This document shows, piece after piece, positions 2,806 through 63,912 of a stretch of DNA of 64,000 nt; positions within the stretch are counted from its first letter, which is position 1, and the number at the start of each line of letters is the position of its first letter. Source of the DNA: Epinephelus fuscoguttatus. Taxonomy: Eukaryota > Chordata > Actinopteri > Perciformes > Serranidae. The stretch spans positions 35,924,143 through 35,988,142 of the forward strand of contig NC_064761.1 of the NCBI RefSeq assembly GCF_011397635.1, given 5' to 3'. The notes below the pieces were generated by a model that was not told where the DNA came from, did no database searches, and saw only the letters and a program-made list of their open reading frames with translations. The position numbers were made by a program, and so were the translations under genes.

Positions 2806-4586
2806 TATCCAAAATCCACAACCACAACCCAACTTCTCACTTATTTATGCAATAACAAATTAAATTAGATTAGAAATGAATTTGTTTTCATTCAAATAAC
2901 TGTGTCACAACTGTTGGGGGAAACGTTGAGATCATTTTCAATTAAACTTTTACATGTTGTATTTTTGTTGCTAAAATGAATTTGGCTGAAATCTGACATT
3001 TCTAAGGGAAAGCACCAACTGTGAAGATGTGGTCTGATATAATACCAATGTTTGGTGGACAAAACGGTGCATTACTAGCATTTGTATTAACATGCCAAAT
3101 GTAAAATTAGTGTAAAGTTACTATGTTAAAACAATCCTCCTTTTTGGTTCAGAGTGCAACGTCTCCAAAAATATTGGAAGGCTTGCTTTAAAATGTTGTA
3201 CAAACATTTAAGGTCCCCAGGTGATGTATCCAAATGAAATAGTCTATGGTCACAGACATTTTTGATTAATAGTGGTATGTATCCACAACTATTAGAGCGC
3301 TATGAATTCACTACAGACATTCAGGTCCCTCAAAGGATGAATCGTTACGACTTTGGTGATCCTCTGCTGTCATCAAGTCAAAATGTCAGTGTGACCAGTT
3401 TAGTTTGGATTTGTTTTGCTGTGTCCCACATCCTTATTATATCCTAATTTTGCACAACCTATGCCATATATTCATCTCTAAAGAGGACTTAGTGTGAAGT
3501 ATTGGATGGAACTGAAACACAGCTTTTGTATTTAGTGCTAATTACTAGCTAAATGCTAAGGTGCTAACATGCTAAGCTAAACTACACACAAGCATGTTGG
3601 CACTGTCAATGCAAGTGTGTCAGTTTGATGTTAGCCTTTAGCTCAAAGCACCACTGTGCCAAAGGAAAACCACACTCCCTGTGTGGTGGACGTGTTTCCA
3701 GGTGTCTAATAGTCTATACCAGGTGTTTGAAGCCGCGTTTTAAAAGCTATAATAAAGTGAGTTGAATCACCATTTATTGGTATTAATCGTTAGAGGAATA
3801 ACAAAATGGACATTTACTTTTATAGGGATGATTATTAGATTAGCTATTTCCCACATCTCGGTGGAGTGACTAAGAAGTCAGTCACTGCCTCTTGGGGCAG
3901 AAACAATCTCAGTAATGTACAGACACAAGGAGAGCAAAAGAAGATGGAGGTTACTGAGAAAGCAGGGTGGAGTATAAAAGGTCACAAGTAGCATGCACAT
4001 TCCTCAGAGTGAGAGGTGAAGTATTTCTCATCAATTAGATGTAGTTCTTACAGGAAGAGTTGTTTGGCAGCAAGTGACATCATCCAGAGCCTTACATGAA
4101 TTGATAAGACACACTGATAACGTACCTCCATTTCCTGTATTCACCTTTGTAGCAGCCTGCTTGCTTATTTTCTCTCCCCCTTGTGTTTGCCAGTTTAACG
4201 GCTGTAAATTACAAGTTATTTGGCAGCATCTGAGCCTCATTCCAATCAATCTGACAGATACATGTAGGCCTGCTGAGTGTTTGTATTCTGAGATTGAACT
4301 TGTCAGCACTTTCTTAAATGTAAATCCCTCTTACTCACGCCTCTGACAAGCACTGTCTAGAAAGGCATGCTGGGAGAAACAGTGGAAAATCCCCGAGTAT
4401 GGGCAAAGCTGTGGTTGTCTAACATCACAACCCTGCAAGGCTTGGTGCACAGTCAATATCTTTTATTCCGGATGCCAGAGTTGCATGGGTTTGCCTTTGG
4501 CTCCTACCAGTGAGAGTTATTTGTATGGGCGTGTATCTGATAACTCTATTAGTTTCACATGTAGCTAAACAGAGAGAGGAACTTAC

Positions 4587-9277: not shown

Positions 9278-11553
9278 CAGTGTTGGGCAAGTCACTCTCA
9301 ATATCACTAGTTACCTTCATTTGAAAGTAATGAGCCTCTTCACAATATTCTCCCAAGACCCTGTGTCCTAAAATGATGTCATCACATTTTGGGTTTACTG
9401 CACCTTACGGTATGTTCCAGGCAACCTGTAACCCGTGTTTTTACATCCTTCTACCTGTAACTAATGCTGTGATCCATTTACGTTGCTACAAGACTCAAGA
9501 TGATGTTGTAAAATGTTGTAACTTCCTGTTTGAATTGGCGATATGCGTCCCCGTTTGCGTTTGTACCATTTGTGACCTAAACGTAAACAAAGACGGATGC
9601 CTCCAAGAAAGCAGTCGTCGCTATTGCAGTCGCGGAGCCTTTATTATTAGCAACACTGCTAACTACTTTCACCAGCACCAACGGATAAACACATACACGA
9701 CATCATAAAGCATTCCAATAAGGCATTATAATGTGTATGAGTAATTAAAATGAAGACTCATATTTGCTAAACTGTAAAAATAATAGTAAAGAGCAGAGTC
9801 ACTTATGGTAAATATAGGGCACAGCCATCTTTGCTTTCATTGGTCTTTCGAAACTCGTAGTCCTCTGAGTACATACAAGAGGCGTGTCATGTCGTGTAGC
9901 TGCGTAATTTTGCACAGCTTCCTGTCTTTCCTACCGTCTTACTAGCGGTAAGATCTATATGGACAGACCATTACCACCCGTGAACTTGTACCAGATCAAT
10001 GTACTCCCAGTTACGCTCTCTGACATCACACAGCCCTCTAAACAACAATGGCAGCCCCCATGGAGTATTAAAGTAAGGTATTGCTAAAACGTTAACGTTA
10101 AATCTACTAATGTTAACGCATTATTGGCAACTGCTCTATCCAGTGCAAGAATAAATCAATACAAAATACGCTTCCAAACACACAGATAACATAAAATATA
10201 ACGTATAATAGCATCTGTGACCTTTTGCACCGTTTCTCCTCCGTTTCGCTCAAATGAGCAAGGAACAGGCACCTTTGCCGATAGAAGTGATCGTAAACAA
10301 ACATAAACCCTGCACGGTCCGCCATGTTTGTTTGACAGTTTGACATGACTTTCCTGCAACAGAGTCGTGGGTCGTGACTTGAAGTGGTGACTTACGGGCT
10401 CAGAAACTTGCCTGGAATGCAACATTATACTTCATTCTACTTAACTTGGACCTGTTGTCCTCATTCGTGGACACATTTTTGTGCCATCTAGTGGTTGTTA
10501 TGGCACAATACACTTATACATGTAAAAAGAACATGGTAGCTAACTCTGCTAATTCAGTCTGCAGCCGATCCCAACACAAAAGTGAACAAGGTCCAAAACC
10601 TAGATGCCACAAATACAAAATGCTAATGTTTTTAGCACAAGCCTATGGCAGTTTACATTGTATAAATTAGCCTAGTGGCTAGCGGACTTATCTTCTACTC
10701 TACATGAGGCAAGGGACAACAGCAACATTTAACAAAGGTAACGTTACAAAATTCAGCTCCATCCCAACTCACAAGGTTCACTGACAAAACAACAGTATTA
10801 AACACATTTTTCAAACAAATACAATATGCTAATATTTTTAGCACAAGCCTATGGCATTTTACATTGTATAGATTAGCCTAGCGATGAGCGGAGATTTCCT
10901 CTACTCATGTGAAGCCTGGATAAATCACACACAAGACTTAAAATGCTTTTTTGTAGAGGCTTTATTATCTTCACACTTTGTCATTTTTTATCTGTGAAAT
11001 TTAAGTAAATAAAAGTTTTGTTTCCACTGAGGGAAATGGCTTCAGTTTACAAAAATAGACAGGAGGTCTGTGTCGACGCGATCTGTAGTTACATTTCTGG
11101 GAAGGTGCACGTCAGGCTGTGGTGTAGACTACGGTGTGGATTCGACCTCAGAAGAATGAATAGGCATTATGAATGGATGAGGGTCATGTTGTTTCACTGA
11201 GGACAATCCAAGCGCAGAAGCTCCAGTTCATTACAGCTAAGTTCAAATCCAGTGCTGCACAGGTCTGACCCATTCATGCATTCACATACAGTGGTTACCA
11301 CTTTGTATTAAAATGGAAACTATGATAAAGAACGAATAAATAGCCTCGATATTTTTAAATAAATGAATATCCTTGGACACAGGGAGGGTCAGGCTGAGGA
11401 TTAAAGTCTAATAATCATGAGATATGGATCAATATTTGTGGGTCTGTGATATGAAACACAATAAACAAATGTTGAAGTTAGCAAAATAAACGGATTAGAT
11501 GTACCAATTACCAGGACAAGGAATACTTTTGTAACGCGTTACCCCCAACATTG
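9278..11553. mobile_element. hAT-like non-autonomous transposon with perfect 8-bp target duplication
   Basis: The left end is CAGTGTTGGGCAAGTCACT at 9278 and the right end, read inward on the other strand, is CAATGTTGGGGGTAACGCG ending at 11553. The 8-mer CCTATCAA lies immediately outside on both sides (9270-9277 and 11554-11561), which is the hallmark of a hAT-superfamily insertion. The 2.28-kb interior has no transposase frame. It contains two direct copies of a ~100-bp unit (about 10595-10700 and 10795-10900). The left end sits directly upstream of tgfbr3 exon 1. Confidence 0.75.
10595..10920. repeat. Direct repeat inside the hAT-like element
   Basis: Two copies about 200 bp apart share ATGCTAAT-TTTTTAGCACAAGCCTATGGC, then TTTACATTGTATA-ATTAGCCTAG. 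They differ by scattered substitutions. This looks like a two-unit tandem array within the transposon, not a gene. Confidence 0.6.
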
Positions 11554-31300: not shown

Positions 31301-34300
31301 GACGCCCAAACAGGCTTACAAGGCAGAACAAAACTGGGGCACATACCTAACATGATTGCTCCGTAGCACAACTAGTGGTCAAAAACTCCACATGGTATCA
31401 TAAGTTATGTTTGTTACCTACTTTATGTGATGTTTTTAATTGTGCTCTTTTGTGTTTTAGCATTGTATCTGTTGAGACACAGTGGTGGCAGGAAGGTTTG
31501 AACAGCCTTTTATATCCCCAGAATAAACAAAACGCAGAGGTGTTAATGATGTCGAGGTGTAAATGCTGAGAGGTTGTAAATGCTGTTGACAAGCAACAGT
31601 AGCACTTTATAGGTGTGGTGCACTTGTTAAATGTTGCTAAAATAGTGACATTTTTTGTAGGGGAATGTGTCCCTATTCTCTTTGGCAACGTAGACATGCT
31701 GTAAATATAGATATCATTAACTGTCACTGTTTATTTGTTTGATTGTTGGCAACACTGTGCAATATGGATTGGTTCCAGTGTTGCATGCCATATTACAGCT
31801 GGCATACGTGAACACAAACGGTAACAATACACAAAGGATCAGAAATGGAGTAGGCTTTAGATAATTAATACTGGCAAATGGCAAAAAAAACAAAACAGTT
31901 TTTTCTATCAACAGGAAGTTTTTGAGGCCCGATATCTGAAAGTTCCCCAAGAAGCAGAGGGTTGTTCCATACCTTATCATCGAGCTGACAAGGGACAAGG
32001 AGACGGAGTTGGAAGTGTGTCAACTTCAGAAAGTTCTGAAACCGAGAGCTCCATAGAGGCGGAGAGTCCATCAGAGGAGGTGGCCGTGCAGCTGGCCAAT
32101 CTAGAGGAGCGGGTGGGTGTATTCATTCCGGTTACAGTGCAAATGGCTTTTGAGCAGTTATTCGCTTCAGTGCATTTTAACCTAATTGGCTCATTAATGG
32201 CTGGCTTTGCAGTTGAAAGCTGTCAGCGACCAGCTGAAGAGACTTGCCCAAGAGCCCCTGCTGAAACCGAAGAAGAAAGACAAGTTGAAAAAGGAAAAGA
32301 GAGCCAAAGAGAAGGACATCGCTCGACTAAAACACAAGTCATCAAAGTACAAATCTATTGTAGAAAAAGCCAACCACAAGATCTCTACTTTGTAAGTAAG
32401 CTCCACTTAATATGGTTTATATGTCATACTAATGTTAAACTGAGTATTCCCCATGTGCAAACGTTAACATTAGATGTTTCATTTGTACGTCTAGGCATGG
32501 CAACAGACACAATATTCATGGGGTACCTTTGAAATGCAAGGACGAGGTCTCATCAGCACCGGTGAGCTACGAGGAGAAAAGGCAGTTGAAAATAGACATC
32601 AACAAGCTGCCTGGTGACAAACTGGGCAAGTTGGTGAAGATCATTCATGCCAGGGAGTCCTGTCTGCGAAAATCATCTCTCGAGGATATTGAGGTTGACT
32701 TTGAAATACTCAAGCCTTCCACACTGAGAGCCCTGCAGAGGTTTGTTGCAGCATGTCTGAGAAAATGCAACAAGAAAACTAGCCGTAAGTACAGCTCGGT
32801 CCTGCTGCTTTGCTTAATCTTCCTGTCAGCAAATGCACCTTTTAAAAATGTAGGGTTATTATTTCTTCTGTCCTCAGAAAAAAAGCAGGTGAAGCCCACA
32901 GAAAGACCGCCGCCTGGAAAACTAAAGGATGTCAGGACACCTCAGGTTGCCGCTAAAGAGCAGCACTCAATTAAGAAAAAAAAGCAATCAGGTAAAATCT
33001 GAATTTGATTAGCAATGTAATTGTCACAGTTGGGCTTCCACTCGTGAGGCATTAAATGTAAAAATGACACTTTACCTCTCTTTTGTGAACAGCTAAACCC
33101 GTGGCGGCTCCTGACCTCGGCTGCCCTTCACGCCTCAGTGACAGCAGCAGCAGCAGCAGCAGCAGCTCTTCGTCCAGCTCTGAAAGCAGCTCCAGCAGCA
33201 GCAGCAGCAGTCATTCTAGCACTTCTGATAGCAGTGACTCTGAATCAGGTTAGCTGCTCTCCCGTTTAGCATTATACCCTCACCTGCCTTTGGTTCACCA
33301 TTCTCCACTCTCCTTCCTTAAAATGAGAAAAAAGCTGTGGGTTATTTATTCACCTGGGTGCCTTACCTCTACCTTTCAAAGCTGTCTCTTGGTTGCACAC
33401 CAAATATTAAATTGTTTTATATTTTTGCACATTCATCAGGTGTTTGGTCTTTGTTTATTTTACACTAGTCTTGTGTCAGTGCTAGAGAAGGATTTGGAAT
33501 CATCGATTATCTTTCTGCTATAGCGGGGGAAAAACACACTGGCTTGTTTTTGTTTCTTTAAACCAATCACAGTCATCTTGGGCTGCACTCACCAGGATGC
33601 AGCAATGTTGCTCTTGCAAGATAGTGTCAGGGGTGAACTTGTTTTGGTGGAACATTTGCATGTGGGGGAGCTGAGCACTGTCATTAAAATTTCTCTGCAA
33701 AAGAAAACGCCACAAAAATATTAACAGTCACATGATTCAACTTTAAGTTGTAGAAAAGAAAAACATGATCTGATGATCGTAACCCTAGAGGTGAAGCCTG
33801 ACTGTACTTCAGCTCGGGAGGAGCTCAACAGACCAGTTGAAACCACAGATGGCTCTATGTGGCTCGAGCAGAACATTATTACAATGATATCAGAGAAGCT
33901 TTAGTAATGTGGAATAGATTGGAACGTCCATGAAATTAGTGTTTAGTGTGTAAGTTGTAAGCTTGGAGGTTGTTGTTGTTTGGAAATGGTAACAGGCATA
34001 TAGCGGAAGGGAGGGAGAATGCTGGCTGAAATCAGCAGCCCAGTGGCAGGCTTATAGTCTCAGTCTACATCTGGTGAGTCAGACTTAAAGGATAACTTAG
34101 GTATTTTTCAACCTGGGCCCTATTTCCCCATGTGTATGTGTGCGTATGATTCATAGGTACAACTCGTTTGTAAATTAGTTTAGCATTGAGGGAGGCGGAT
34201 GCAGCCGCGAGGTAGATATGGGGGCAAATGCGTCCCGTATAAGTTTGCGCATTAAAAATGCTTTTTTCGCCACTGACCGGTTCAGATCACCAGTGCTATC

Positions 34301-37300
34301 TCTGTAAATAGCATACTAAGCATTTCCCTTACCCCTCACTTCCTGTGTGCTGTGTGTGATGTCATCTTGCGAGAGCTTTGCTTGTTGCCGGAAGAAAACA
34401 GAGGAGCCATGCTGAGCGCCGCACAGAGTGGCGCTGGTTGTCCCGGAGTACAGTTGAGAGTTTTACTGCATCTGTATCATGGCTGCATATTTACCCGATT
34501 TCGAGAATGAAGATGAGCCCTTTTATTACGATGGCCGCCCGTACTTATTTGAGCCCGAGGAGAGCAGACGAGGATAGAGAGAGGGCCAACGAGCAGACGA
34601 GGGTGAAGCAGCGGCTGCACGAACGTGAATCTCTGAGGACTGGTGGTGCTCCTGTGGTTGCTGTGACTCCATGCCCACAGAGGAAGAATGTCTGTGTTGC
34701 AGCGAGTGGGACCTGTTGCCCAATATTCATGGTCTCGATGTGTCCTGGGATGACACAGAAACTACCAAACGCTGTGTAACTACGTTAGAGGACTTCCCCC
34801 CTCTGATCAACAGGGCAGTGCTGGATACCTTTTTTCATGTGCCCAAAATAAATTGGAGGAGGCGGCCAAAACCACAGGGACCAAATGGTCAACTATCCAT
34901 CAAGTAAGTATAACTAATATGTCTTGATGCATGCAATACTGATACCTAGAATTGTTGTTTTCTTCCGGCAACAAGCAAAGCTCTCGCGAGATGACGTCAC
35001 ACACAGCACACAGGAAGTGAAGGGTAAGGGAAACGCTTAGTATGCTATTTACAGAGATAGTACTGGTGATCTGAACCAGTCAGTGGCGAAAAAAGCACTT
35101 TTAATGCGCAAACTTATAGGGGACGCATTTGCCCCCATATCTACCTCGCGGCTGCCGGCTGCATCCGCCTCCCTCAATACTGAACCAATTTCAAAATGAG
35201 TTGTACCTATGAATCACACACACACATATACATGGGGAAATAGGGCCCAGGTTGAAAAATACTGAAGTTATCCTTTAATTGCACACACAACTTTTAATAC
35301 TCTGTCCACATGAAACAGGTGCACATGTCATGTTCCCAGTTGCTGGCTGAGTTCTAGTTGCTGCAGATGCTAACTGGGGGTTTGTCTCCGGAACTGCTGC
35401 CTACGCTCCTCCCGGCGAGGTGGTCTGTAGTAGCGGACAGCGAGGCATAGGACATAATGTGACTCAAGGCTCTAGCTACATGAATATCAACTTGAATAAG
35501 CTGCAGATGTGAGCTTTTGGCTTCAGTTAGCAGAAAGCTGAGCTATTATGACTCCTCACTCTGTAGACTGTGAATTATTAATGTGCATGTCTTTCAGTGC
35601 CAAAAACAAAGAAGCCAAAAACTAAAGACTCTTGCCAAAAGGTGAAGAAGAAGGTAAATACATTCAGTATTTGCTCAATGAACTCAAGAGATTCATGATA
35701 AGATAATCATGCTGGTTACAATCAAAAGTAAAAATGTCCCTTGTTCTTAAGTCAAAGGTGACTCGCGCTGCCTGTGGCAAGCAGAAAACGGAGACAAAAG
35801 ATCTGACGAAAGCCTCGGTCAAGACTTGTCAGCCTCCTCTTGCTGTGCAGTCGTCGGCAGCAGAAACCAAAGGCCCCCCAGCACACCGTAGTGAAGACCA
35901 GACCTGTGATGGGCTGACTCTATCACCACCAGGTACTGCTCACATTTGTCCTCTTGTCACTACACTAAGGCAGAATCGAAGTTTGGCAGGAAATGCATGT
36001 TAAATTTACAGGATGATTTTAAAATAGTGATTTTCATTAAGACAATGGAAGTGTGTAAGCCTTGGGCTCAGAAAAACTGGGTCACCTTTTGCTTCAACTT
36101 GATATCACTTCAAATGAATATACGTTTTTGTCTTTCTGATGCTGAGGTGAGACTGTTTACGTTAACCCCATATTTGTTTTTCTTAGTTCTGCATTATCCT
36201 CTCGTTTCTTTCCCAGCCTTTTGTGCCAGAGCAGCATTAATACCTCCCAAAAACCCCGTACTCACCCTCACTCACACTCTCAGATCAGCTTTGTCAGCTC
36301 TTTTAACAAATACCTCATTGAGATTCCTTATTCCTCCCTCACTGATGCAGCTCCACATCAAGTAAACCTCTTCCAGCGCCTGTGCAGCCCAGGCAGCCTG
36401 TTCCCCTTTAATTGCCCCATATGCTCAGTGTCCTTCAGAAACAAAAGTTCAGGAAGTGAAAACTGGCTCACTTGCACTCTGTTCTAATGAAGCTGAACAG
36501 GAAGGGACCAGTCAATTACTGCCCCTATTTCACTCCATCTCATGCTGCTTCTTCCTGCCCTCACTTGATTTTACTGTGCACTAGCTCATGCTGTACATTT
36601 TTATAAGCGCACAGTAGCTCCTTTCTTTTCACATGGCTCTGATCAATATCTGTCCTTTATTGTTTGGCAGATTTGTCTGCGCTTTTATCCCCCATGGCCT
36701 CTCCAGGAGTGTTGCTGGACTGGGCTGCCACCAGATTTGAGGTACTTCTACTGAAACACTTGGACTGTACCTTTTTTAAATAGTCTGAGTGGGCGGAAGT
36801 TCGCTGCAGAGATCAGCCTCTCATTGGGCGGAACGAGCCACCCGCTGAAGTCCCGCCCTACCACCTCCAGTTGTGTAGCGGTTTTCAACACGTTCTTTAC
36901 TAACTTTTGCGGTGTTTGATCTTGCGGGGATGTAGCCATTTTTCTGCCATGGTTCGCGTCCTGTAGGCGATATTTTTGTGGGCGTATTACACCAAAACCT
37001 GTTTCCCCCCGACAATATTTTTGCAAGCGCACCGTTGCTGTGGCACCGGCCAGAACGATTGTGATTGGTTGAAAGAAGTACAAGCAGCTGGGGCGTTTTT
37101 TTCTCCAATCTTAAAGTGAGAGTCAGCCCAGCCAGACCTTTCTTTTCTTGAGAAAGGTCTGGTGAGCGAGACTACTTTTTAAATGACCTGCATATAAATG
37201 AGATCAAACGACGCATGTTTATTTAGTGGAAAAGGCTCTATGTGTAACCCCTTTTACAGTGTGAATACCCTTAAAATCAACACATCACAGCAGCTGTTGA

Positions 37301-39872
37301 GCTCTTGTCATATCATATCATACACATGGCCCAGTTGCATTTACAGAGCACTCTGAAGGGGCCGCATCCACCAAAGTGTTTTTCTCCCAGCTGGAAATGC
37401 CAGGCACTCCTCAGGAAACGGCGAGCTGGGAGCGTTTGAGAGCACTTTGGAAGTGCAGCTTTTTTAGCTGAGATGCTTTGTTTGTGTTTGGTTGCTATGT
37501 TTCCAAATATCCTCAGATAGACACTTCAACACAAGGTAGAGTACTTGCTTTGGGTGACGGGAAATTAACCTCCGTTGTTGTTCATCAGCACTTGTACATG
37601 TAAGATGTGACGGTTGTCTTTGTGGTATTTGTCCCTCCTCTGCTGTGATTTAACGGCTGAAGTGACAGTGATGGGCACGGTGTTTTTACCTTAAGTTAGA
37701 CATTATCACATTCTCAGCGCTCCAGGAAAAAAAGGCCAAACTGGCAGCACTAGGCGCAGAATTCACACCCAGTGCCTTATCACGCTGCTGCCGTTAGGGT
37801 TAGCGGAGTGTACACGCGGCGCTCTCATTGCAGAGTATTAAAAAAATACGACAGCCCAGAAAAATGTCTAAAAATATATCTACAAATGACATGAAGAAGG
37901 ACATGAAGATTTTAAATGTTAAAACTAAATGTCAACTTTCAGCCAGGCCCTGTGCTGTCCCCTTTGAGAGACAGTCCACTGCAGTCCAAAGATGAGACCA
38001 CGTCCAGTAAGTCGCTAGGTGAGCGCCTACTTTTACGTCAGCATTTATTTTGAAATAACTAATACTTAAGCAGAACACTTATTTTGAAAGTAATTCTGCC
38101 AGATTCCGGGTACCCTGAGGATCTTCCCGACAGTCAGCCAACTAATGTGCCTTACACTAATGAAGCAAGTAAATCTGCTGAAGAGGAAAAACATCCCAAA
38201 AAGGTTAGCATTGTTTAACTGAGTTTATAATTACAAACAAGTGTTGACATCATTTTTCTGGAATGTTGAATGATTTTGGTGATCAGGATGTCGAGGGAGG
38301 GTTGCACCAATGAGGATTAATTACAGCAGATGGACACAGTTGATAAGACAATGTTTTTCTGTCCTTTTTATTGGAGAGAAATCAGTTAACGCAGCTTTAA
38401 AGATGATCCTAGTTGGTGCCACCAATTCCCACCGCACTGGAAATGGATTATAAGTAAACATGGTGATTTATCTTGTATAGGACATCGTTCTAAAAAATGC
38501 TGATTCTTGGGCCAAACTGGTGAGACAGTCAGTCACTGCAACTGCAATCAAGTCCTCAAAGGAGAGTTTTCAGCAGTTTCGTAAGGCCGCCATAGAAAAG
38601 GAAGAGCGTGAAAAAGCACTGAAGAAAAAACAGATGGAGGACAACAAGGAGAAGGAGGCTTCTGAAAAGAGCAGGTATTCAGCAAATACATCAGATTTAC
38701 TTCTGAATTTAATTTCTTTATTGAAAAGTGGGTCCATAATGTATTATTTATGAGGGTTTTAAATCATTTTCTTTATGTATTTAAATCCAAACATTCAAAT
38801 TTTGGTTTAAGTACATATATTTTAGTGTCAAAATCCTATTTTCCCAAGACCTTACTAAAACAACTCCCACCCGACCAGACATAGGTTTCTGCATGTTGAT
38901 GTTGCTTCATATAAAACCCCCCTAATGTGCCTCTTCGTGACTGAACCAAGCCTTCTTTGGCTTTTGTGTTAATTGTGTTAATGCTGCATTCAGACTAAGC
39001 GTGACACAGCAACAGACTACAATTTCTTTTCAAGAATGCCGCGTTAGTTCACATCCAAAAGTCACGTAGTAACCAAACAAGGCAGCAGGAGACAAGCGAC
39101 TTTCATGGTTTGGAAGGTTTACTGTAGGATCTACTGTAGGTCATACACTGATTATGGATTGAAAACCTGAAACAATCCCATTTCAAAAAATTTGAACAAA
39201 TCCTTTTGGTTATTATTATTATTATTATCAGCAACCTAACCTATGTCACTGCTTTTTGCCCACAGCTGAGTGGGTGTATCCATTTGAAAAACCAGGACAG
39301 GTGGAGTCGAGCTTAAAAATGCTGCCCTTAGACAAGGTTTAAAAGATGCCACTACATTTTTCAGCATAATTTAGACTATCCAAATCCCAGTTTTTTGAAA
39401 AAGTGCCTATAAACCAAAGGAGCATTTCTCTGTTAAAGCCTGGTGGATGATTTTAAGAATTAATTTTAGTTAATACAGTCATTTTCCTTCTAGCTTACCG
39501 GCCACATGTAAAGCAGAAACAAATTCACAACCTATGAAGGAGGATCCTGATTCACCTGACTGTACAGAAGCTGTCCTCGACGTGCCTAAAGACATTGAGA
39601 CACATAAGCCAAAGTCTCCCACAGAAACCCAACCTCTAACCACGCAGTCCTCAGTCGATAGGCAAAGAGAGATGGCCCGCAAGAAGGAGCAAGAACGTCG
39701 CAGGCGAGAGGCTGTGAGTACCCTCATCCATGCTTTAGGGCTAATTTGTTTTTTGTAGTAAAATGAGGTTTAAACAACCAATCTGTGGTTTGTTTTCTCT
39801 TTACAGATGTCTGGCATTGACATGACTATGCAGCGGGACATAATGACCACATTTGAGCTGAACCTGGACTGA
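28353..39872 (+). CDS. brdt: brdt, BET-family double bromodomain protein (19 coding exons, complete)
   Basis: Nineteen coding exons join without a frame break into 984 codons (human BRDT, from memory, is 947). Order of domains: bromodomain 1 (about residues 25-130; WPF shelf 50-52, acetyl-lysine Asn109); basic NLS-like KRKAD and a lysine/arginine patch (199-250); bromodomain 2 (about 258-360; WPF 282-284, Asn341); an acidic serine cluster and a basic coiled segment (390-480); NET domain (about 503-575); a serine run (about 628-660); and a C-terminal P-TEFb-type motif ending FELNLD. BET proteins read acetylated H4 tails and drive transcription; BRDT acts in male germ cells and remodels chromatin in spermatids. 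The call brdt rather than brd4/brd3/brd2 rests on the NADSW...[13 protein letters not shown] segment, which resembles BRDT, and on the tgfbr3/ephx4 neighbours. The ATG at 28353 is chosen because it opens with MSD... directly before bromodomain 1. Confidence 0.93.
28435..29300 (+). other. brdt: brdt bromodomain 1 (exons at 28353, 28757, 29234)
   Basis: The fold starts in the first coding exon ([20 protein letters not shown]), continues with the [19 protein letters not shown] shelf and ZA loop, the [13 protein letters not shown] helix, and ends with [22 protein letters not shown], where Asn109 should hold acetyl-lysine. The key WPF and Asn residues are intact, so binding is expected. In mouse, BRDT's first bromodomain is essential for spermiogenesis; this is known for the mammal, not shown here. 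Confidence 0.9.
30300..30699 (+). other. brdt: brdt bromodomain 2 (exons at 30141 and 30571)
   Basis: The segment runs [60 protein letters not shown], then [20 protein letters not shown] with Asn341 in the binding position. The WPF motif is at residues 282-284. All standard BET second-bromodomain landmarks are present. Confidence 0.9.
30700..31914. other. brdt intron 7, no gene seen
   Basis: Unique and AT-rich with T tracts near 30929-30955. The frames at 30732-31052 and 31375-31727 have no recognisable motif and lie on both strands of the same segment. Confidence 0.5.
32545..32784 (+). other. brdt: brdt NET (extra-terminal) domain
   Basis: The exon encodes [20 protein letters not shown], then [20 protein letters not shown] and [20 protein letters not shown], the three-helix ET/NET module shared by BET proteins, which binds short lysine-containing hydrophobic peptides of partners such as NSD3 or JMJD6. 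No key position looks damaged. Confidence 0.88.
33093..33248 (+). other. brdt: brdt serine-rich tract encoded by AGC repeats
   Basis: The exon has a pure run of eight AGC codons from about 33143 and a second run of five, interleaved with other serine codons and acidic residues ([10 protein letters not shown]-type, then SDSSDSESG). Serine tracts of this kind occur after the NET domain in BET proteins. Pure trinucleotide runs are prone to length change, so this segment is a candidate for polymorphism. Confidence 0.8.
33249..34084. other. brdt intron 12, left part
   Basis: No exon. Frames at 33290-33523 and 33518-33715 are not recognisable. The sequence is unique up to the TTAA-flanked transposon at 34085. 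Confidence 0.5.
34089..35274. mobile_element. TTAA-flanked transposon with ~310-bp inverted repeats inside brdt intron
   Basis: TTAA flanks the element on both sides (34085-34088 and 35275-35278). The ends, AGGATAACTT-AGTATTTTTC AACCTGGGCCCTATTTCCCC, are inverted copies that stay closely similar for about 310 bp each (34089-34397 and about 34965-35274), down to TTGCTTGTTGCCGGAAGAAA. A unique centre of about 570 bp holds a broken P2X7-like gene on the plus strand. TTAA targets fit T2/Kolobok-like or piggyBac-like families; no transposase is present, so it is non-autonomous. Decayed single ends of the same kind are seen at about 41975-42163 and 55690-55790. Confidence 0.8.
34479..34907 (+). pseudogene. 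P2X7 cytoplasmic-domain-like protein gene carried by the transposon, frameshifted
   Basis: The start codon at 34479 opens an acidic N-terminus ([32 protein letters not shown]) that runs into TAG at 34575-34577. The same frame, open again from about 34640 to TAA at 34905-34907, encodes a cysteine-rich motif ([21 protein letters not shown]) and then [19 protein letters not shown]. WCxCGxC...MPxxEExxCC is the signature of the P2X7 receptor intracellular domain, which in fish also occurs as separate transposon-linked proteins. In between, an R/E-rich stretch is open in another frame, so at least two frameshifts or indels break it, and the C-terminal part of the family is missing. Not a functional receptor: no P2X membrane segments or ATP-binding ectodomain. 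Confidence 0.7.
36742..37942. other. brdt intron with a GC-richer interspersed repeat
   Basis: About 36780-37180 is an interspersed repeat with GGGCGGAAGTTCGC, GGGCGGAACGAGCCACC and an end that folds back on itself (CCAGACCTTTC-TTTTCTTGAG AAAGGTCTGG). Overlapping minus-strand frames of 95-111 codons lie across it and are explained by the repeat. 37780-37830 is a small CpG-rich spot with no gene evidence. Confidence 0.5.
38675..39493. other. brdt intron 18, no gene seen
   Basis: AT-rich unique sequence with a short (ATT)n tract near 39211-39228. Nothing else recognised. Confidence 0.5.
39494..39872 (+). other. brdt: brdt C-terminal P-TEFb-type motif
   Basis: The last two exons encode [20 protein letters not shown] followed by [17 protein letters not shown] and the stop TGA at 39870-39872. 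This matches the conserved extreme C-terminus shared by BRD4 long form and BRDT, which recruits P-TEFb (CDK9/cyclin T1). Its presence shows that the gene makes a long BET isoform. Confidence 0.85.
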
Positions 39873-40650: not shown

Positions 40651-42700
40651 TCTCAGAATAATAAAGCTATTTTCACTAAGTGATCTGCATCACTTTATGA
40701 GGCACGAGGCCAGCAACATATATGGATGGAATGATGGATATTAAAAAAAATAAAGAAAGGGGGCACCAGCATGCAGAAAGTTTTGTAGCCTGTAGGGCAG
40801 CATACATGGCACTGCATCCTGTCTTCTCCATTAAGGCCACCATAAAGGGCATTTCATTTTGTTTTCTCCACTGGAGGGGCACCCCAGAGGGCTCTTTATC
40901 ATGTCTTTTCCATTTAGAGCCACCCCAGAGGGCACACTTTGTCATGTTTCATCTACCATAAGGCCACTACAGATGCGGTATCCAAGGGCACTTTAGCTTA
41001 TTTTCTAACATGGGTATATATAGGAACACGAGAAGCTCGAGAATCCCAAGGGCTGACAGAGGAGCTGGAAAAGATGTGGGGAGTAAAGGTAACAGTGGTG
41101 ATCCGAGCAGGGCTGTGAGAGTGGCTCGAACAGATTCCAGGTACAACATCTGAGGTCTCTGTCCAGAAGAGTGCAGTCCAAGGCACAGCTAAGATACTGC
41201 GCAGAACCCTCCAACTCCCAGGCCTGAGGAGGACCTGACCTTGAGGAAGACACACCACCACCACCACCACCGCCCATGGAGGGGTGGTGAAGTGATTAAC
41301 ATTGATCATCTTGTTACATCTCATTACAGTGCAAGTTCCTGCTGGGAAACCTTGGGTCCCGGCATTCACGTGGATGCCAGTTGACAAACACCGTACACCT
41401 AAACACTATTGCAGACCAAGTATCCCCCTCATGGCAACGGCACTCCCTGATGGCAGTGGCCCCCTTAGCAGGAGACTGCACCATGCCACACTGCAGGAAC
41501 TGCTCAGGAACGTGACAAAGAGCTCAAGGTGCCAGCCTGGCCTTCAAATTCCCCTCATCCCAATCCGATCAATCATTCATAGGACGTGCAGGTACCCCAG
41601 AGATCCTGTGTCTATGCCTCGGCAACTCAGAGCTGAGTCTGATCCACAGTGGCGCTTGTGACCTGTTGAGGCCTCTGGGACCTCTAGGGGTGTCCTGTGG
41701 TGTCTGGCACCAGACCGTCAGCAGTGTATCCTTTGAATCCTGTGGGTTGCAAGGTAGGGTAGCGGCACATCCCACAGATGCTCAATCGTAATGGGATTTT
41801 TGATTTTTGTTACGTCCCTCAGGCCATTTCTAAACAGCCTGGTTGGTTTGGTGATAGCGTTTTCGGTGCTGACTTGGTCAAACAAAAAGGATTTTACCTT
41901 ATTTTACCTACAAAAAGGTCTATCTCTGTTTGGATCCTTTCCATAATGTTGTCAGACATTTAGAATAATAGTCTGAGCCTGTCAGTAGCAAAAAAAAAGC
42001 ACTTTTAATGGACATAAATTGACTTTGCGAACATGCCCCACCGGCTGCTGTTGATCAATACTGGACCAATTTAAAACATCTTTGTTCCTGTTGGTCACTT
42101 AGACACAAAAACACAGAAAAATAGGGTCCAGGTTGAAAAAACACTGAGGTTTCCCTTTAATTTAACCAGACTGAATTATTTAGGCTTATTAGTTATTAAT
42201 GAATTCAGTTTGTGCTTCATTTGGTCAGCTCCTGGGCTCCATATGTCAGCTCTGAACTCAGATCCTAATCCGTTACATATCCAGCCACGTGAGGGATTAG
42301 GCTAATCTGAAATTGGTTAACAGTCTTTATTATGTGTGGCTGTTATCTTGTGCCTGATAAAGGCGCACCTGTGACCGCATTACAGCTGATTAACATATTA
42401 ATGCGCTGCCCAAAACAGCACCAGCCATACCTGCTTATTAAGTCGTGTTGCAGCATATTGTCCAAGAGCTGGTTGGTGAGAGGATTGATAATATAACAGG
42501 AATATTTCAGTGGACTAATGAGCACGTGCATGCTGCCTTCTAAATACAGTGTTGTTGCCATAACAGCGGCGTGCAGCCTCCGGTGCTTTGCAGTGATTTT
42601 CAGCCTTTCTCCCTGCGCCTCTCAGCTGTGCTCAAATCGCTGTAAAGGAGCCGCATCGAGTGGCTCGTTGCTTGATTTCGGACTTGCCTTGTATAGTCAA
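40651..42700. other. brdt-ephx4 intergenic region
   Basis: Contains tandem-like 45-60 bp phrases (CCACTGGAGGGGCACCCCAG, CCATTTAGAGCCACCCCAG) at 40780-40970, the repeat at 41040-41290, the Tc1 remnant at 41395-41780, and a decayed end of the brdt-intron transposon family at about 41975-42163 (GGGTCCAGGTTGAAAAAACA, then TTCCCTTTAA). The frames on both strands at 40967-41387 are produced by a G/C-rich repeat. No gene recognised. Confidence 0.5.
41395..41780 (+). pseudogene. Tc1/mariner transposase C-terminal remnant
   Basis: Despite several stops and frame breaks the plus strand still reads pieces of a Tc1 C-terminus: CACCATGCCACACTGCAGGA (APCHTA-type), GACAAAGAGCTCAAGGTGCC, then a stretch for W-P-S-N-S-P-H-P-N-P-I (the SPDLNPI motif), and later a TGGTGTCTGGCACCAGACCG stretch. 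It lies between brdt and ephx4. The part at 41040-41290 (GTACAACATCTGAGGTCTCT, AGTGCAGTCCAAGGCACAGC, CCACCACCACCACCACC) is another repeat piece that I cannot name. Confidence 0.55.
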
Positions 42701-46200: not shown

Positions 46201-49200
46201 GGAGGGTGGAGGGGTCCGAGGGGCTTACTTTGCTTTAAACCTCATCTATATTCAAAGATCTGAGAGTTCAGTGTCGGGATCTTACACTGACTCATCAAAA
46301 TCACAGTCAGAGCTCTGCATCTTGCTTTCCCTGGTTCGATGGAGGAGGAGGAGGAGGAGGTGGAGAAGGAGGTGGAGGGGGAGGAGGCGGAGGAGGAGGG
46401 GGATTTCAGTCCTGATGAGGAGCCTTTACAGCAGACAAGATCTTCAATTAGGAAGTCATCCCAGTCCACATGATCAGTGGGTGGATTAGAATCTAAAACA
46501 GCTTCTATTATACTGAAGTGACCTTCACTCAGCTGGAAAACAAGCTGAGTGCTAGCTTTAAAAAAGTTTGTAAAGTTAGTTTGTAACTATCTCACCAATT
46601 TTGCACATCGAGTTCAGTTTAATCATCATGCGAAACACAACTCAGCCTGAGAAAACAGCTGTATAGATAATGCACTGTGTGGCTCTGAAGGGAGATTTCT
46701 AAAGTCTGAAAAGTACTGCTAATGATGTCATCAGGCAGCCCAGTCTCCAGGAGAAAATGTTGGCATTGTACATTTTTGCAAAACTGAAGTTTTTTTGTTG
46801 CCAAACATAACCACACGTTAACGTAGCATTGTTGAAATGGTGAAATTTCAACATATCTGCTTAAGTATCCAAGGTTTGCAGCAATGTACAATGCCAACAT
46901 TTATTCTGGGGACTGGGTTGTATCAGAGTTATCTGCAGACACTACTGAATTCCATTATGGGGAATGTAGGAACCAGTGTTTCGGGACTAAAACTCAAGAT
47001 ATCTGCACTGCTGCCACATGGCTTTTGACCTTTTTTTTCCCAACTAGTTTCTTGCAGGTTCCCCAACTCTATGATACTGTGCCATATTAAATTGCTGTAG
47101 TACCCCTTTAAAAGGGTACGCTGCTGTGGAAGAAACAAACTGTCTCTTTGAGTTTGCAAAATATTTAAAGAAATGAAGGACATAAGTCATCTTTGCATCT
47201 GTTTGTGTGCCTCAGGTTCTCCTGGCGTTACCAGCTGCGCGAGTTCAAGAGCGAATTCCGTGTGGTGGCCATCGACATGCGGGGCTACGGGGAGTCCGAC
47301 CTGCCACTGTCCACTGAAAGTTATCGCTTCGACTACCTGGTCACCGACGTCAAGGACATTGTGGAGTACTTAGGTGAGGGAACGCAGGGGAACAGTGTGG
47401 TGTGTAATCTTCAATGAACTCAAAGCAGTGCACACTGTTGTGACAGTGTCTTGAGTCAAAAATAAACTTGTTTATCAGTCTTAAGCTGTGGACAGCCCTC
47501 AGGCCTGCAGCATGGCATGACAAATGTCCTGTGACTCATTCTGACTGAACATGGGATGTTGTGCAGATACAGAGCCCACAGACTGCATGCTAACACTAGC
47601 AGGAAGCCAGCCTGAGGCTGTCTGAACACACCAGCATCCCCTAATGATTATCCGGCCAGGGTGACTTTTTTTGCTCTTTTACTGGCCAGTGTGTGACAGT
47701 TTTTAATTTTTCATTTAGCCCTGCAACATACTGTACAAGATAACCTGCCTGAGCATTGAAATGTTAGTTTCTAATTTCTCTGACAGAACAGTAGATCGTG
47801 TCTTGAGGCTCTATCTTTGTTTTCTCCTTCACACCTGCCACCTCATATCCAAGTGTGTCACAGCTACTGTTGTAGTGTTAATTACTAGGGGTGGGCGATA
47901 CCACAAAATTTGATTTCGATCTGATACCAAGTAATACACAGCTGGAAATGCCGATATATCGAAACTGATGCTATACTTTTTATCATTAAAAGTGACTCAT
48001 ATACTTTCATGTAGGAGAAAGCAGTGTGTCAGGATTTATGAGGTGAATTATCAAACAGCTATTGATGACCAGTTGAGTTCCAAAAGTTGAACTCAGTTTA
48101 CCTCAGGACGCAGCCGTCACGCCCTGAAAATTAGGTGCTCAGGAGTGTGTGCGCACCGCAATAGCATCACTCTCCTTTCCTTTTAGCTCTGTTTTTGGTC
48201 TCCACCAGCTCCTGTTTACGGCTAAATGCTCCTCTGTGTTCACCAGCCAGCTGCTGGCTTTGTCTTTCTCCCGTTTGTTAGTGGACCATCTTCATGCTGC
48301 ATCTGAAAACACAGCTGAGTTTGTTGAAAACCTGAATCGATGAGCTGAACGATGCTAAAATGCTCTCTAGAGCCCAGGAGTGACCTTTCTCTGTGGGCTC
48401 ATCACCACAAGTAACACCTGTTATTACATTACACACAGTCATTAGGTCAATTGTTACCAAAAAAATGCAGCTTTAAATGGTCCCACAACTGGTCCATGTC
48501 CAGCCCAAAGGAACCATCATGTCTGTAAATACACTCAAGCAGTTTTTGAACACATTCCTTATTAAATATTTACATTCTCTGGGAGTGTGCTTTTGGAAGA
48601 GGTCTAGTTAATGTTTTGCAGCTCCTTTGATCGTTCTAGCTGTCATAGTTAATTTCTTAATAGGCTTTCAGGAGCTAAGTACTCAATAATGCATATTGCT
48701 GTGCAAAGATTCACTCAATGTGGCTGGCTTGCATTGATCACATGATAACTGCTGTACTCTGATCTGTGACTGGACCACAGAGCTTTTTTCGCACCAGCAG
48801 TTAAAGCCCACATAGGCCACATTATAAACAATATTCACAGTCAGCTAATGGTGCTACACCAATCTGAGATTTGGCCTTTAGTGACACTGACCTTTCCATT
48901 GATAAAAGCTGGAACAGCCATGGCCTTTTTTCAAAATAAATGCTGGCATTGTACATTTCTGCAAACCCCAGATACATAACATTTGTACATGATTATGTAG
49001 TGGATATGTTGGAACATTATGTTTCATCAGTGCTGTGGTTAACATGTATAGGATTACACACAAAATCCACTCGGTTATGGGTAGGAAAAGATTACGTAGT
49101 GATGCCACTTTTCATGGCACAGGAAATGCAGCAATGGCTCAGTAAAAAAAACAAAGCAGTTCTCATGGCACTATCCCCGCTAGAAAAGCAGCGTCAGGTC

Positions 49201-52200
49201 ACTAAAAGCCATCCATGTTTGGAGCCTAAAAAGCTGCTTGTAAAACAGTGACGGGTCACTATAAAGTACCCTGAATTGGTGCCTGAAAAGCTGCAGGAAA
49301 AACAGTGATGGCTCACTAAAAACCACCCATGGTTGGTGCCTAAAAGGCCTTTTGTAAAACAGCAACTGGTCACTAAAAGAGACCCCAAATTTGTGCATTA
49401 AAAGCTGAGGTAAAAACTGTGATCAGTCACTAATAACCAGCCATGTTTCGTGCCTGAAAAGCTGCTTGTAAAACTGCAGGAAAAAAAGTGATGCATCACT
49501 AAAATCCACCCATGTTCGGTGCCTAAAAAGCTGCTTGTAAGACAGCAATCGGTTGCTAAAAAAACACCCCAAACTGGTGCCTGAAAAGCTACAGAAAAAC
49601 AGTGGCAGGTCACTAAAAACCAGCCATGTTTGGTGCCTGAAAAGCTGCTTATGAAACAGCAACAAGTTGCTAAAAAACACCCTAAATTGGTGCCTGAAAA
49701 GTTGCTGGAAAAAAGCGATAGGTTGCTGAAAACCATGAATGTTTGGTACCTAAATAGCCACTTTTAAAACAGCAAAGGGTTCCTAAAAAACACCCTCACT
49801 TTGTGTCTGAAAAGCTGCAGGAAAAACAGTGATAGCTCACTAAAAACCATCCATGTTTGGTGCCTAAAAAGCCGCTTGTGAAACAGAAACCAGCTGCTGA
49901 AAAAACACCCTAAATAGGTGCTTGAAAAGTTGCAGGAAAATAGAGATAGGTTGCTGAAAACCATTAATGTTTGGTACCTAAATAGTCACTTTTAAAACAG
50001 CAAAGGATCGCTAAAAACACCCACGTTTAGTGCCTGAAAAGCTGCTGGAAAAACAGTGACATCTCACTAAAAACCACCCATGGTTGGTGCCTAAAAAGAT
50101 GCTTGTAAAACAGCAACCAGTTGCTGAAAAAACACCCTAAATTGGTGCCTGAAAAGCTACAGGAAAAACAGTGATGATCACTAAAAACCACCCATGGTTG
50201 ATCCCTAAATAGTTGCATTTATAACTGCAAAGGGTCACTAAAAAACCCATGGCTGGTGCCTAAAAAGCTGCTTGTAAGACAGCAATCGGTTGCTAATAAA
50301 CACCCTAAATTGCTGCCTGAAAAATTGCAGGAAAATAGCGATAGGTTGCTGAAAACCACAAATGTTTGGTACCTAAATAGCCACTTTTAAAACAGCAAAG
50401 GTTCACTAAAAAGCACCCATGTTTGGTTCCTGAAAAGCTGCAGGAAAAACAGTGATGGGACACTAAAAACCACCATGGTTGGTCCCTAAAAACTTGCTTT
50501 TAAAACAACAAAGGGTTGCTAAAAAAACACCCACATTTGGTTCCTGAAAAGCTGCAGGAAAAACAGTGATAGCTCACTAAAAAACATCCGTTTGGTGCCT
50601 AAAAAGCCGCTTGAAAAACAGCTAGGGTCACCAAAACACAACCAGTTTTGTTGTTTGTTGGTCTTGAACAATGGTCTGCAGCTTGGCAGGCTTCTGCTCC
50701 AGCTTCTAGGTGTCATCCAGTCACGTTGTCACTTCAGAAACGTTAAAGTAATACATATGAAAGCTACAAATGCAACATATTTGTGGTTTGCAGAAATGTA
50801 CAATGCCAACATTTTCTCCTGGCGACTGCCTGAATGTTAATATGAGGCTAGCTGCTGTGATGAATACCAGTGGGTGTTGATGGTGCGAGCAAAGGTAAGG
50901 GGATTTGTTCGAAGGGAACTGTAATGTGATCAGAATCCTTCAAACGAATGCCCTGACCTTGATCTGAATTTGGCTGTATGTCATGAAATACATCCATTTG
51001 ATGGGTGTAAATGTCCTCTGAGGGATGCAGCCAGCAATAAAGAAGTGAGAACAGTATTGATTTCCTGGCACTGACATGCTTTAATAAACAGGCAGCATGA
51101 GCATCCAGCCTCTATTCAAAACAACACAGTGCTGTCTTCTGCTGCAACAACAAAACACTGTCTCATGTCCACTTGTTTTTTTTTTCAAGGATACAACAGA
51201 TGTTGCCTTGTTGGCCACGACTGGGGTGGGACCATAGCGTGGCTGTTCGCCATTCACTACCCTGAGATGGTGACGAAACTCATCGTCCTAAACAGCCCCC
51301 ATCCTTCTGTGTTCACAGGTATGATTTCACTATGTGCAGACGACTGGCTCTCCACGTATATTTCTTTATGTAATGACAGAAAACCAATTTTCTTCATACT
51401 AATTAGAGAGACTCTGGTTTGGCCCTTGGATTATTAGCATAATTATTATTATCATTAATTAGGAAGTATTATTACTTCAATTCCTCTTCTGCCTTAAGGG
51501 AAAGATGATGAGAAGCTAATTACAGGAGGCTAATGTGAAGCTGGAACAGCTGGTTTAACTGGTGCAAACATAGAGGCAAAGTCATTGAGAGTCATCACGT
51601 CCACGACCCCGCAGCGCGTGCAAACTTGGCCTTTAATTACTATCGAACAACTGAACTTGTCTCCTCTCCTCTCCTCCAGATTACGCTCTGCGTCACCCGA
51701 GCCAGCTGCTGAAGTCCAGCCATTTCTTCTTCTTCCAGCTGCCCCGCTTCCCGGAGCTCATGCTCTCCATCAATGATTTCAAGGTGGTCTGTTGTGTGTG
51801 GGCATAAGCGGTTTCAAGGTCAAGGTTGTGTGTGCTTGCGTCTCTGTGTGTGGGTCGTATGCATGTGTGTTCATGTGCATTGGTGTGTGTTGCATGTTGT
51901 TACAGTGTCAGGCTATTTTTAGGGTTTGCATCAGTGTGACTAAAACCTCCTGCTGTGAGAGAGGCTGTAGTAAACAAAGGGATCAAACTATAGCTTATTA
52001 CCAAATCATCAAAGGGCATTTTGTCGCAAATGAGGCATTAACCTTTTTTTTATTTTTGTATATATTAAAATGTGGTTTTCAAAATCAATAATATTCATGA
52101 TGTTGAAACAGGCAGGTTTACTTACAGTTTTAATGCAGAGTTTACAATTTAATGGGCAATATGCTAATTTTCTTTCGTGTTGAGGGTCAGGTGAGAATAT

Positions 52201-62300: not shown

Positions 62301-63912
62301 TTGTAGCTAAAACTGTGTCCGACAGAGACACAGCAAATACACGCGTAAACATAGATATGTGTGTGTGAGTATACCTGAGTGTGTTTTATTTTAGGATACG
62401 TTAAACTTCTATTAAAATAGAGATAAACTGGTTCTTCTTGGTGGCAGTATCAGTAGTGTTTTCCCCTGGAGGCTAAAGGAAGCCGGGTTTCTATCATTGA
62501 AGCTGTTTTAATTATAACATTATGGTTAAATATTTTTTGGTCACATAAGAGTGACTGGATTTGAGTCGTGCCCGTGTCTTCCCGTTTTAATTGATTTACA
62601 TCATACTGGTAAGCAGCGCCTCCCCGGGTTACAATGGTGGTAAATGTGAGTGAGTGTGTGGTGAAAGGTGGTGGTTGCTGATTTAATCATGTCACCTCAC
62701 CCAGGGGAGTCAGGTGAAGCTAGCAACATGGCAGTCAAGAATATTAAAGCATAAAAACGGAATCAGATGTGGCTAACTGTATCTATAATGTGATGGTACA
62801 AGCTGGTAGATTTAGGGACTGTTCTTTACTTATCAGAGGGAGGTGGCTGTGGTGTGACTTTTTTTTTTTTTTACCCTCCCTAAAGCTACAAATATTTTTC
62901 CTTGAACCTCCATGAGTGCCTGCTGGAAAATGCATGACCCTCTCTCCACCATAAATTAGTTACTAGATATTAAAATTTACCCTTTGATGTTTGAAAATTA
63001 AAAATTTAGGATGACGTCCTGGAGTTGAGAAACGTTTTTTCACTTGTCCTGCATGCTGGTTAGTTTGTGTTTGAACAGTTTATTTTTGGCCAAATTTTAA
63101 ATAAAATGTAGAATAAAATGATTTTGATGAAATATAATTATTTTAATCTCAGATTTGTGTGTTTTTTTTAATTCTGAGGTAAGCATTTGTCACATATGAT
63201 GTGTCCCAGGACTGTTGGGAATTTGAAAATACAGTGATAATTTCTGTCATACTGTTTTTGGCTGTGATAAATGAGAATGTGGATATAAGCAGCTGAAATG
63301 AGATGACATCCGGAGCGAGCTTGGAGTAGAGCCACTGCTCCTTGGTGTCAAAGAGGTCAGTCGAGGTGGTTCAGGCACCTCCTGTTAGAGGTGTTCCGGG
63401 CACGTCCCACTGGTAGGAGGCCCAAGGGCAGACACAGAACACACTGGAGGGATTACATATCTCATCTGGCGTGGGAACGCCTTGGGGTCCCCCAGGAGGA
63501 CCTGGAAAGCATTGCTGGGGAGAGGGATGTCTGAGGTGCTTTACTTGGCCTGCTGCTTCTGCGACCTGGCCCTAGATAAGCGGATGAAAATGGGTGGATG
63601 GATGGATAGATGGCCCTATGCTGCATGTCATCTTCTCTTTCTCCTCCTTTCACGCCAAAGCTGTCCTTTTGAATAAAGGCACATCCAAAACCAACAAATT
63701 CTGCATTAAAAATAATAAAAAATACAACCTGTAAAATGCGTGCACCCCTCCCCGAACATAAAAAACAAAAGTCCTTTTCCAGTGCCTAAAAAAATAGTTG
63801 ACATGCCTACCCTTTTTAGCACTTAAGCACTGTACTTAAGCACTATGTAACTGTAGGTGTACTGTCTGTAAAGCGGTACAAGCATATTTATCACATTTTG
63901 TTCCTTTTGCAG
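62174..63912. other. Putative intron 1 of the unidentified gene, with a LINE tail
   Basis: Contains the GTTAGC/GCTAGC cluster at 62240-62270, AT-rich unique DNA, the LINE tail at 63300-63612 and the short AGCACTTAAGCACTGTAC / TTAAGCACTATG repeat at 63820-63850. Nothing else coding is seen. Confidence 0.45.
63300..63612 (+). pseudogene. Non-LTR retrotransposon 3' end (ORF2 tail and ATGG tail repeats)
   Basis: With frame breaks the plus strand reads the C-terminal tail of a fish LINE: IRSELGVEPLLLGVK, then a stretch corresponding to GEVFRACPTGRRPRG, RTHWRDYISHLAWERLGVPQ, and WxxLLxLLPPRP-type remains, followed by GATAAGCGGATGAAAATGGG and (TGGA)n. The final tandem TGGATGGATGGATAGATGG is the usual 3' tail of the family. 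I would place it in the Rex/L2-like group but cannot be sure. Confidence 0.65.

Follow-up and report, generated by a model that had tools for sequence, protein, structure and literature searches.

In this study, we followed up an element in a 64,000-nt stretch of Epinephelus fuscoguttatus DNA (NC_064761.1, 35,924,143-35,988,142; this whole stretch is the window, and element coordinates are window positions), which had been read from its letters alone as a TTAA transposon carrying a broken gene like the cytoplasmic tail of the receptor P2X7. The element, at 34085-35278, is very probably a non-autonomous Kolobok of the Kol0 lineage—the KolX-encoding lineage—that was produced by internal deletion, is mobilized in trans and carries KolX exon 1 as a passenger. 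Judged by comparison with its relatives, its center is exon 1 of the KolX gene of such a Kolobok, cut just past the splice donor of intron 1. According to the available text of Kojima and Bao (2022; PMC9587614), Kol0 Koloboks encode KolX, KolX resembles the ballast domain of P2X7, and P2X7 arose when a P2X4-like gene became fused to KolX. The idea in the original prediction that this domain was originally a transposon protein agrees with the KolX relatives that we find in the genome, and had been published in that paper; its description of the cargo as a receptor-tail domain, however, reverses the direction, as the cargo, KolX exon 1, is native to the transposon.

Architecture of the element and its copies

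The ~1.05-Gb genome holding the window was searched for copies and relatives of the element. Its own sequence returned 1836 first-look candidates, 40 of which were scored as genomic places; since 29 of the 40 (window copy counted) match essentially its entire length, ends and center together, the element is not a chance arrangement. Its parts are as follows.

34085..35278, + strand: whole element, TTAA to TTAA (1194 bp)
34085..34088, no strand: left TTAA, target-site copy (read from the sequence)
34085..34400, + strand: left terminal inverted repeat, starting TTAA-AGGATAACTT (316 bp)
34479..34903, + strand: KolX exon 1, broken, holding the cysteine motif (by sibling comparison)
34904..34909, + strand: GTAAGT, predicted 5′ splice site of KolX intron 1 (position as in the relative L080)
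34910..34955, + strand: presumed remnant of KolX intron 1, adjoining the right repeat (by sibling comparison)
34956..35278, − strand: right terminal inverted repeat, starting TTAA-AGGATAACTT on the minus strand (323 bp)
35275..35278, no strand: right TTAA, target-site copy (read from the sequence)

Aligned with each other by BLAST, the two repeats of the window copy are 92% identical over 323 columns, gaps counted. Their inner arms (34201-34400 and 34956-35155, 200 nt) are 96% identical, their outer arms (34085-34207 and 35156-35278, 123 nt) 91%, and they enclose a center of 555 bp (34401-34955), to which some sibling copies add tens of bases of the presumed intron remnant. No transposase lies within 34085-35278, and the element is therefore classed only as a non-autonomous Kolobok derivative. 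TTAA termini, paired repeats, a missing transposase and a family of copies sharing ends and center had all been proposed or asked for in the original prediction, and all were borne out.

For the family alignment we used 28 copies drawn from the 29 near full-length ones and picked by similarity to the window copy; they differ from the column majority by 2.8-4.8%. The right TTAA is present in 27 of them and the left one in 26 as cut; of the other two, L008 has none and L050 has it immediately beyond the cut. Joining the flanks of two copies gave alignments to paralogous empty sites with four collinear bases at the TTAA in three comparisons, namely L004 against L044 and against window 63305-63603 (the latter gapped nearby), and L048 against window 10422-10528; L006 matching itself and a poor alignment of L044 with L056 also span a junction but are uninformative. 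The ends of the 28 copies and these empty sites of two show insertion into TTAA with duplication of 4 bp. Directly inside the TTAA lie AGG..CCT (the family's end sequence is AGGAT), that is, termini of the 5′-RR..YY-3′ form that is the rule for Kolobok and whose purine-first ends set it apart from piggyBac, as the available text of PMC9587614 has it. The window intervals 10422-10528 and 63305-63603 are themselves dispersed repeats, paralogues of which bear this element at TTAA elsewhere. A 106-bp stretch at window 42055-42160 is 74.5% identical to an end of the element and is perhaps the end of an old relative.

KolX exon 1 and its relatives in the genome

In sibling copies the exon-1 reading frame starts at an ATG ~80 bp past the inner edge of the left repeat, runs for 152 codons to ...GPNGQLSIK, and has a stop codon overlapping GTAAGT, a good 5′ splice site. 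In the window copy, the frame that opens with the ATG at 34479 contains the cysteine motif, preceded by two stops; relative to the sibling frame, this copy lacks 28 + 2 nt and contains one in-frame stop. Pieces of the window copy gave no Pfam family at E ≤ 1, and a PDB search with the window copy gave no match. Four siblings reach 11.9-17.7 bits against PF20478 (P2RX7_C), the sole Pfam family matched, under its curated cut-off of 23.5 bits. As the direct profile scores are thus absent or below cut-off, the link to P2X7 rests on related KolX genes that have both halves of the domain. The description as a P2X7-tail-like gene, then, holds in that the center is a broken remnant tied to P2X7 through its KolX relatives, but the profile match expected of the center itself did not materialize.

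Some of those relatives came from a PF20478 search of the genome, in which 150 of 228 candidates were scored and 82 were matches, many spanning only profile positions ~142-192; the best, L009 (216 bits), looks like a true p2rx7 tail exon. Among eight matches covering the last part of the profile whose upstream kilobase was inspected, two (L079 and L080) carry such an exon 1 upstream. Exon 1 of the sibling L004 is 50% identical to that of L080 (E 2e-36) and 67% identical to that of L083 (E 3e-40); with L079 it aligns in broken pieces of 29-33% (E about 1e-7). L079 and L080 also match the terminal 42-43 bp of the element at 74-81% (79-81% for L080/L082). L080 and L083 begin TTAAAGGGGAAGTTC and TTAAAGGGAAATTTCGG, respectively, and L083 has, besides exon 2, a left end TTAAAGGGAAATTTCGGT. 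Exon 2, corresponding to PF20478 142-192, is present in L079, L080 and L083 and absent from the window element, which thus holds only the first half of the ballast domain. The joined exons of L083 score 42.2 bits over profile positions 105-192 and find, weakly (E 0.94), P2X7 as the sole structure in the PDB; with a profile of eight KolX/P2X7 proteins, p2rx7 included, four P2X7 sequences are matched with E values from 1e-30 to 1e-32. The residues that coordinate guanosine diphosphate (GDP) in P2X7, named as R546, H547, R574, R578 and K583 in the available text of PMC7016195, all five fall in the exon-2 part missing from the window family, by an alignment of L083 to the PDB chain whose numbering is taken as that of rat P2X7.

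One fuller relative is a decayed 4125-bp element comprising L080 and L082, with TTAAAGGGGAAGTTC ends and inverted repeats of ~230 bp. Its KolX gene has an exon 1 with the donor at the position found in the window element and an exon 2 scoring 37.1 bits against PF20478 142-192. The opposite strand carries a THAP exon (48.4 bits)—THAP being usual in Kolobok transposases according to the available text of PMC6004289—and another exon that resembles Kolobok transposase C-termini by eye and has no Pfam match. KolX and transposase exons also occur as convergent pairs: a transposase exon of L066, used as a genome query (52 candidates, all scored), gave 39 matches; 17 of these, at 16 loci, lie no more than 6 kb from a PF20478 match, and 18 of 18 such pairs are convergent. 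This query exon has no Pfam match; its naming as Kolobok transposase rests on its alignment to L070, L071 and L073, with L071 carrying a THAP domain (48 bits). Weak MULE/Mutator matches under the cut-off occur in L072, which is kin to L070 and L073. When exon 1 itself was the query (3621 loose first-look candidates, 150 places scored), exon 2 was detected within 3 kb at four places, and at six further places a transposase match lies convergent at a distance of up to 7 kb, with no detected exon 2. Comparison of the window family with L080 gives nonsynonymous and synonymous divergence (dN/dS) of 0.37/1.93 over 110 codons, with synonymous sites near saturation, and on this ground KolX was probably under constraint in the past, while in full-length elements.

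Further KolX-like loci deserve mention. Four exon-1 matches (C24:18235074, C11:39600238, C16:40828991 and C1:49935317) are 51-56% identical to the window family, have no stops and have a convergent transposase match 3.3-3.7 kb away; they are perhaps younger full-length Koloboks. In L070 a KolX exon (34 bits, PF20478) is convergent to a Kolobok-like transposase, with a reverse-transcriptase-like open reading frame (ORF) in between. L059:4749-5207, L060:1953-2459 and L032:671-1021 form one ORF family (RNKRxYNKxTKTWS..LRPDDPR) with no Pfam match; these ORFs are convergent to KolX-like genes and may mark another transposon type with a ballast-like gene.

Origin by deletion, decay and rival explanations

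A second family shows how an element of this design can form. Its representative L084 (L084:209-1515; C13:38656908-38658214) is 1307 bp long, has 270-bp ends that are 95.6% identical, and carries an open KolX exon 1 of 143 codons with the same splice donor, 54.6% identical to that of the window family; 20 of 40 scored places (134 candidates) are nearly full length. Against the 4.1-kb element it aligns in three blocks of ~92.5% each, with the left end at 1-231, exon 1 and its intron at 230-790 and the right end at 3895-4108, and positions ~790-3895 are missing; L084 is therefore derived by internal deletion from a Kolobok closely related to L080/L082, the 4.1-kb copy itself having a separate loss near the KolX start. 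In a tree of exon-1, KolX and P2RX7 proteins (14 rows), the window family joins L083 (91/99), and L084 and L080 form separate branches just outside. This placement, with the 92.5% identity of L084 and L080 DNA, intron included, indicates that the two exon-1-only families formed through independent deletions. By analogy with L084, the window family is most likely an internal deletion of a Kolobok closely akin to L083.

In the mechanism that we propose, the deletion in a full-length Kolobok would have begun in KolX intron 1 and taken KolX exon 2 together with the opposite-strand transposase, so that the left end, exon 1, its splice donor and the right end remained. A Kolobok transposase supplied by another locus would recognize these ends and insert the element at TTAA, which is duplicated in the process. 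The exon-1 frame would have been open in the amplified source copies but only as a passenger, with each inserted copy decaying on its own and the window copy having lost its frame. The ends, the TTAA sites, the family of copies, the homology of exon 1 to KolX in fuller elements and the deletion route of the L084 family are observed; we infer the cut-and-paste mobilization in trans and, by analogy, the origin of the window family by a deletion route of the L084 type.

Several observations weigh against this explanation. The fuller loci examined (L065-L073, L080/L082 and L083) include no full-length element with the ~320-bp ends of the window family. Neither L065-L069 nor L070-L073, the latter with other transposases, shares a long end with the window element (four of the five loci L065-L069 are one intron-bearing family with KolX and transposase, starting TTAAAGGTGAC where the end is visible), and a 54-bp, 74% match of L065 to the element was set aside as chance. 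Between L083 and the ends of the element there is no BLAST match, only a likeness of ~30 bp seen by eye; no right end of L083 was seen within the 3 kb fetched, and its lone resemblance to a transposase, a weak one (28%, 81 aa, E 0.005), lies on the KolX strand, not convergent to it. The window copy has no direct match to the PF20478 profile, and the similarity of six sibling proteins to the eight KolX/P2X7 proteins is modest in a profile-profile comparison (hhalign probability 65%, E 6e-5, 26 columns). The tree is poorly resolved, with two of 11 inner branches strongly supported and two very long rows; this and the weak same-strand match in L083 slightly lower our confidence.

Substitutions among the 28 copies bear on whether the exon is more than a passenger. 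The majority frame of exon 1 is open, and eight copies (L003-L007, L043, L046 and L048) have neither frameshift nor stop, L043 being without the ATG. Distinct single-copy variants are spread over the codon positions as 57/56/59; variants shared between copies comprise 20 synonymous, 36 non-synonymous and 2 stop changes, and the observed/expected ratios of ORF changes are 0.81 for synonymous, 0.69 for non-synonymous and 0.65 for stop changes, with the spectrum taken from the other columns. ORF columns do diverge less than all remaining columns pooled (0.0291 versus 0.0421), and every class of ORF change falls short of its expected count, but we rejected this as a sign of selection: the non-coding center is as low as the ORF (0.026-0.031), and the difference is therefore one between ends and center. 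By codon position, synonymous/non-synonymous counts and regional divergence, then, no selection on the ORF is clearly detected in these copies.

The ends themselves are 4.4% and 4.5% diverged from the majority, compared with 2.9% for the ORF and 3.1% and 2.6% for the flanking non-coding center. The ends thus diverge more than the entire center, coding or non-coding. The view that the repeats are better preserved than the gene is contradicted by these values, and because the ends diverge more than both the ORF and the rest of the center, nothing shows constraint on them, so that of the two proposals for the ends, constraint and homogenization, the former fails. The latter has a faint indication in its favor. 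Between the majority sequences of the left and right ends, 3 of 322 positions differ, and the founder's ends were therefore nearly identical. Left and right ends within a copy differ by 6.2% on average, or by 7.25% when set against 8.55% between copies; the 7.25% lies under all 5000 random pairings (minimum 7.88%). A copy's own right end is the closest to its left end in just five of 28 copies, and variants private to one copy number 15 in both its ends versus 158 in one end, some of the 15 lying in alignment-sensitive clusters. These data point weakly to some exchange between the ends, not to strong homogenization.

Three rival explanations were weighed. That the transposon captured a fragment of the host p2rx7 gene is suggested by the resemblance of the center to the P2X7 cytoplasmic domain and by the presence of L009 as an apparently genuine p2rx7 tail exon. 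Exon 1, however, is 50-67% identical to KolX of fuller transposons and, in a five-row alignment, only 21% identical to L009, with the likeness to L009 residing chiefly at the cysteine motif; the comparison of transposon copies with p2rx7 in the tree, which the original prediction had called for, groups L083, L080 and L084 apart from P2RX7 and unites exon 1 with L083; and the splice donor has the position seen in L080. Given how much nearer exon 1 stands to transposon KolX, we rejected capture and consider it extremely improbable. An assignment to a piggyBac-type miniature inverted-repeat transposable element (MITE) with TTAA sites and an accessory ORF, mobilized by piggyBac transposase, draws on a TTAA target that is common to piggyBac. 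Here the AGG..CCT ends are purine-first, the 4.1-kb relative bears a THAP exon, and the part retained is the cysteine-rich half of the domain, of which piggyBac-encoded proteins lack most conserved cysteines, according to the available text of PMC9587614; a piggyBac origin is very improbable, if marginally less so than capture.

The idea that the truncated KolX, or DNA inside exon 1, still serves the transposon, so that exon 1 is kept in repeated deletion derivatives, is unlikely in our judgment, yet it has more to recommend it than the other two. Two families with different nearest fuller relatives have each retained exon 1 plus donor, the majority frame of the window family is open, many of the listed L084 copies have no stop (positions matched by eye), and the four places with detected exon 2 are few among the 150 scored. 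On the other side stand the lack of clear purifying selection, with non-synonymous and stop changes among the shared variants, and a divergence of the ORF as high as that of the non-coding center. Exon 1 moreover adjoins the left end, and any deletion starting in intron 1 therefore retains it; exon 2 detection is incomplete, as the six places with a convergent transposase and no detected exon 2 illustrate. A stronger form, in which a half-domain protein (with the zinc-binding cysteines but lacking the region of the GDP residues) or a site in exon 1 boosts transposition, seems equally doubtful, and the suggestion in the original prediction that the truncated gene helped mobility finds no support in the substitution patterns. 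If it were true, derivatives keeping exon 1 would outcompete plain MITEs, and two independent families of the same design would be its signature. Compared with these alternatives, we favor the passenger reading of a trans-mobilized internal deletion product.

Host gene and comparison with known systems

As the original prediction had it, the element lies in an intron of a brdt-like gene: a BET domain upstream (ORF 32439-33002, ~32.6-32.8 kb) and a BRD4_CDT motif downstream (ORF 39474-39758, ~39.6-39.7 kb), both on the + strand, bracket it, which fits insertion between exons of such a gene. We take the host gene to be brdt from the order of BET and BRD4_CDT and from synteny with a nearby alpha/beta-hydrolase ORF at 51 kb. 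Window 49183-50643 is a tandem array of ~57/114-bp units.

The element is real and well-formed and belongs to an ordinary kind of non-autonomous Kolobok, with one suggestive pattern. That the P2X7 ballast derives from KolX has been in print since 2022 (Kojima and Bao, PMC9587614, in its available text); new here are the chain from the window element to KolX- and THAP-bearing Koloboks in the same genome, and the second, independently formed family holding KolX exon 1 only. Elements with only a KolX exon were not found described in the open literature, in a search that stopped short of Repbase and subscription papers. Rump et al. (2020; PMC7016195) report ballast proteins in many animals, and the string 'transpos' does not occur in the available text of that paper; nor is a role for KolX stated in the examined parts of the KolX, ballast and T2-MITE literature. 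Our results agree, within one genome and with the neighboring genes in view, with the published status of the ballast domain as part of a transposon gene, and the internal-deletion elements suggest how KolX exon 1 spread here (150 places scored of the 3621 candidates). Annotation pipelines may label such open exons as 'P2X7-like' genes, and if the retention of exon 1 is functional, these natural truncations offer a handle on the role of KolX.

Among known systems, Kol0 Koloboks of the Kolobok-1_XT type (PMC9587614, available text) share the TTAA target, the 5′-RR..YY-3′ ends and the cysteine motif of the P2X7 ballast, and this genome has relatives of the element in which KolX and a transposase are convergent; the window element differs in holding KolX exon 1 only, with neither exon 2 nor transposase. 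The PF20478 ballast/Nanor proteins have the same cysteine motif (W-C-x-C-G..MPT..E..CC..C), and the exon-2-bearing KolX relatives pass the Pfam cut-off, but the window family retains just the domain's first part, with no channel fusion. A piggyBac MITE would share the TTAA target-site duplication but not the purine-first ends, nor relatives with Kolobok-type genes. The T2-MITEs of Xenopus, which Hikosaka and Konishi (2018; PMC6004289, available text) attribute to Kolobok, are likewise short, transposase-less, TTAA-flanked elements whose ends start with AGG; they differ in having AGGRR where the window family has AGGAT, and the window element, unlike them, carries a coding exon.

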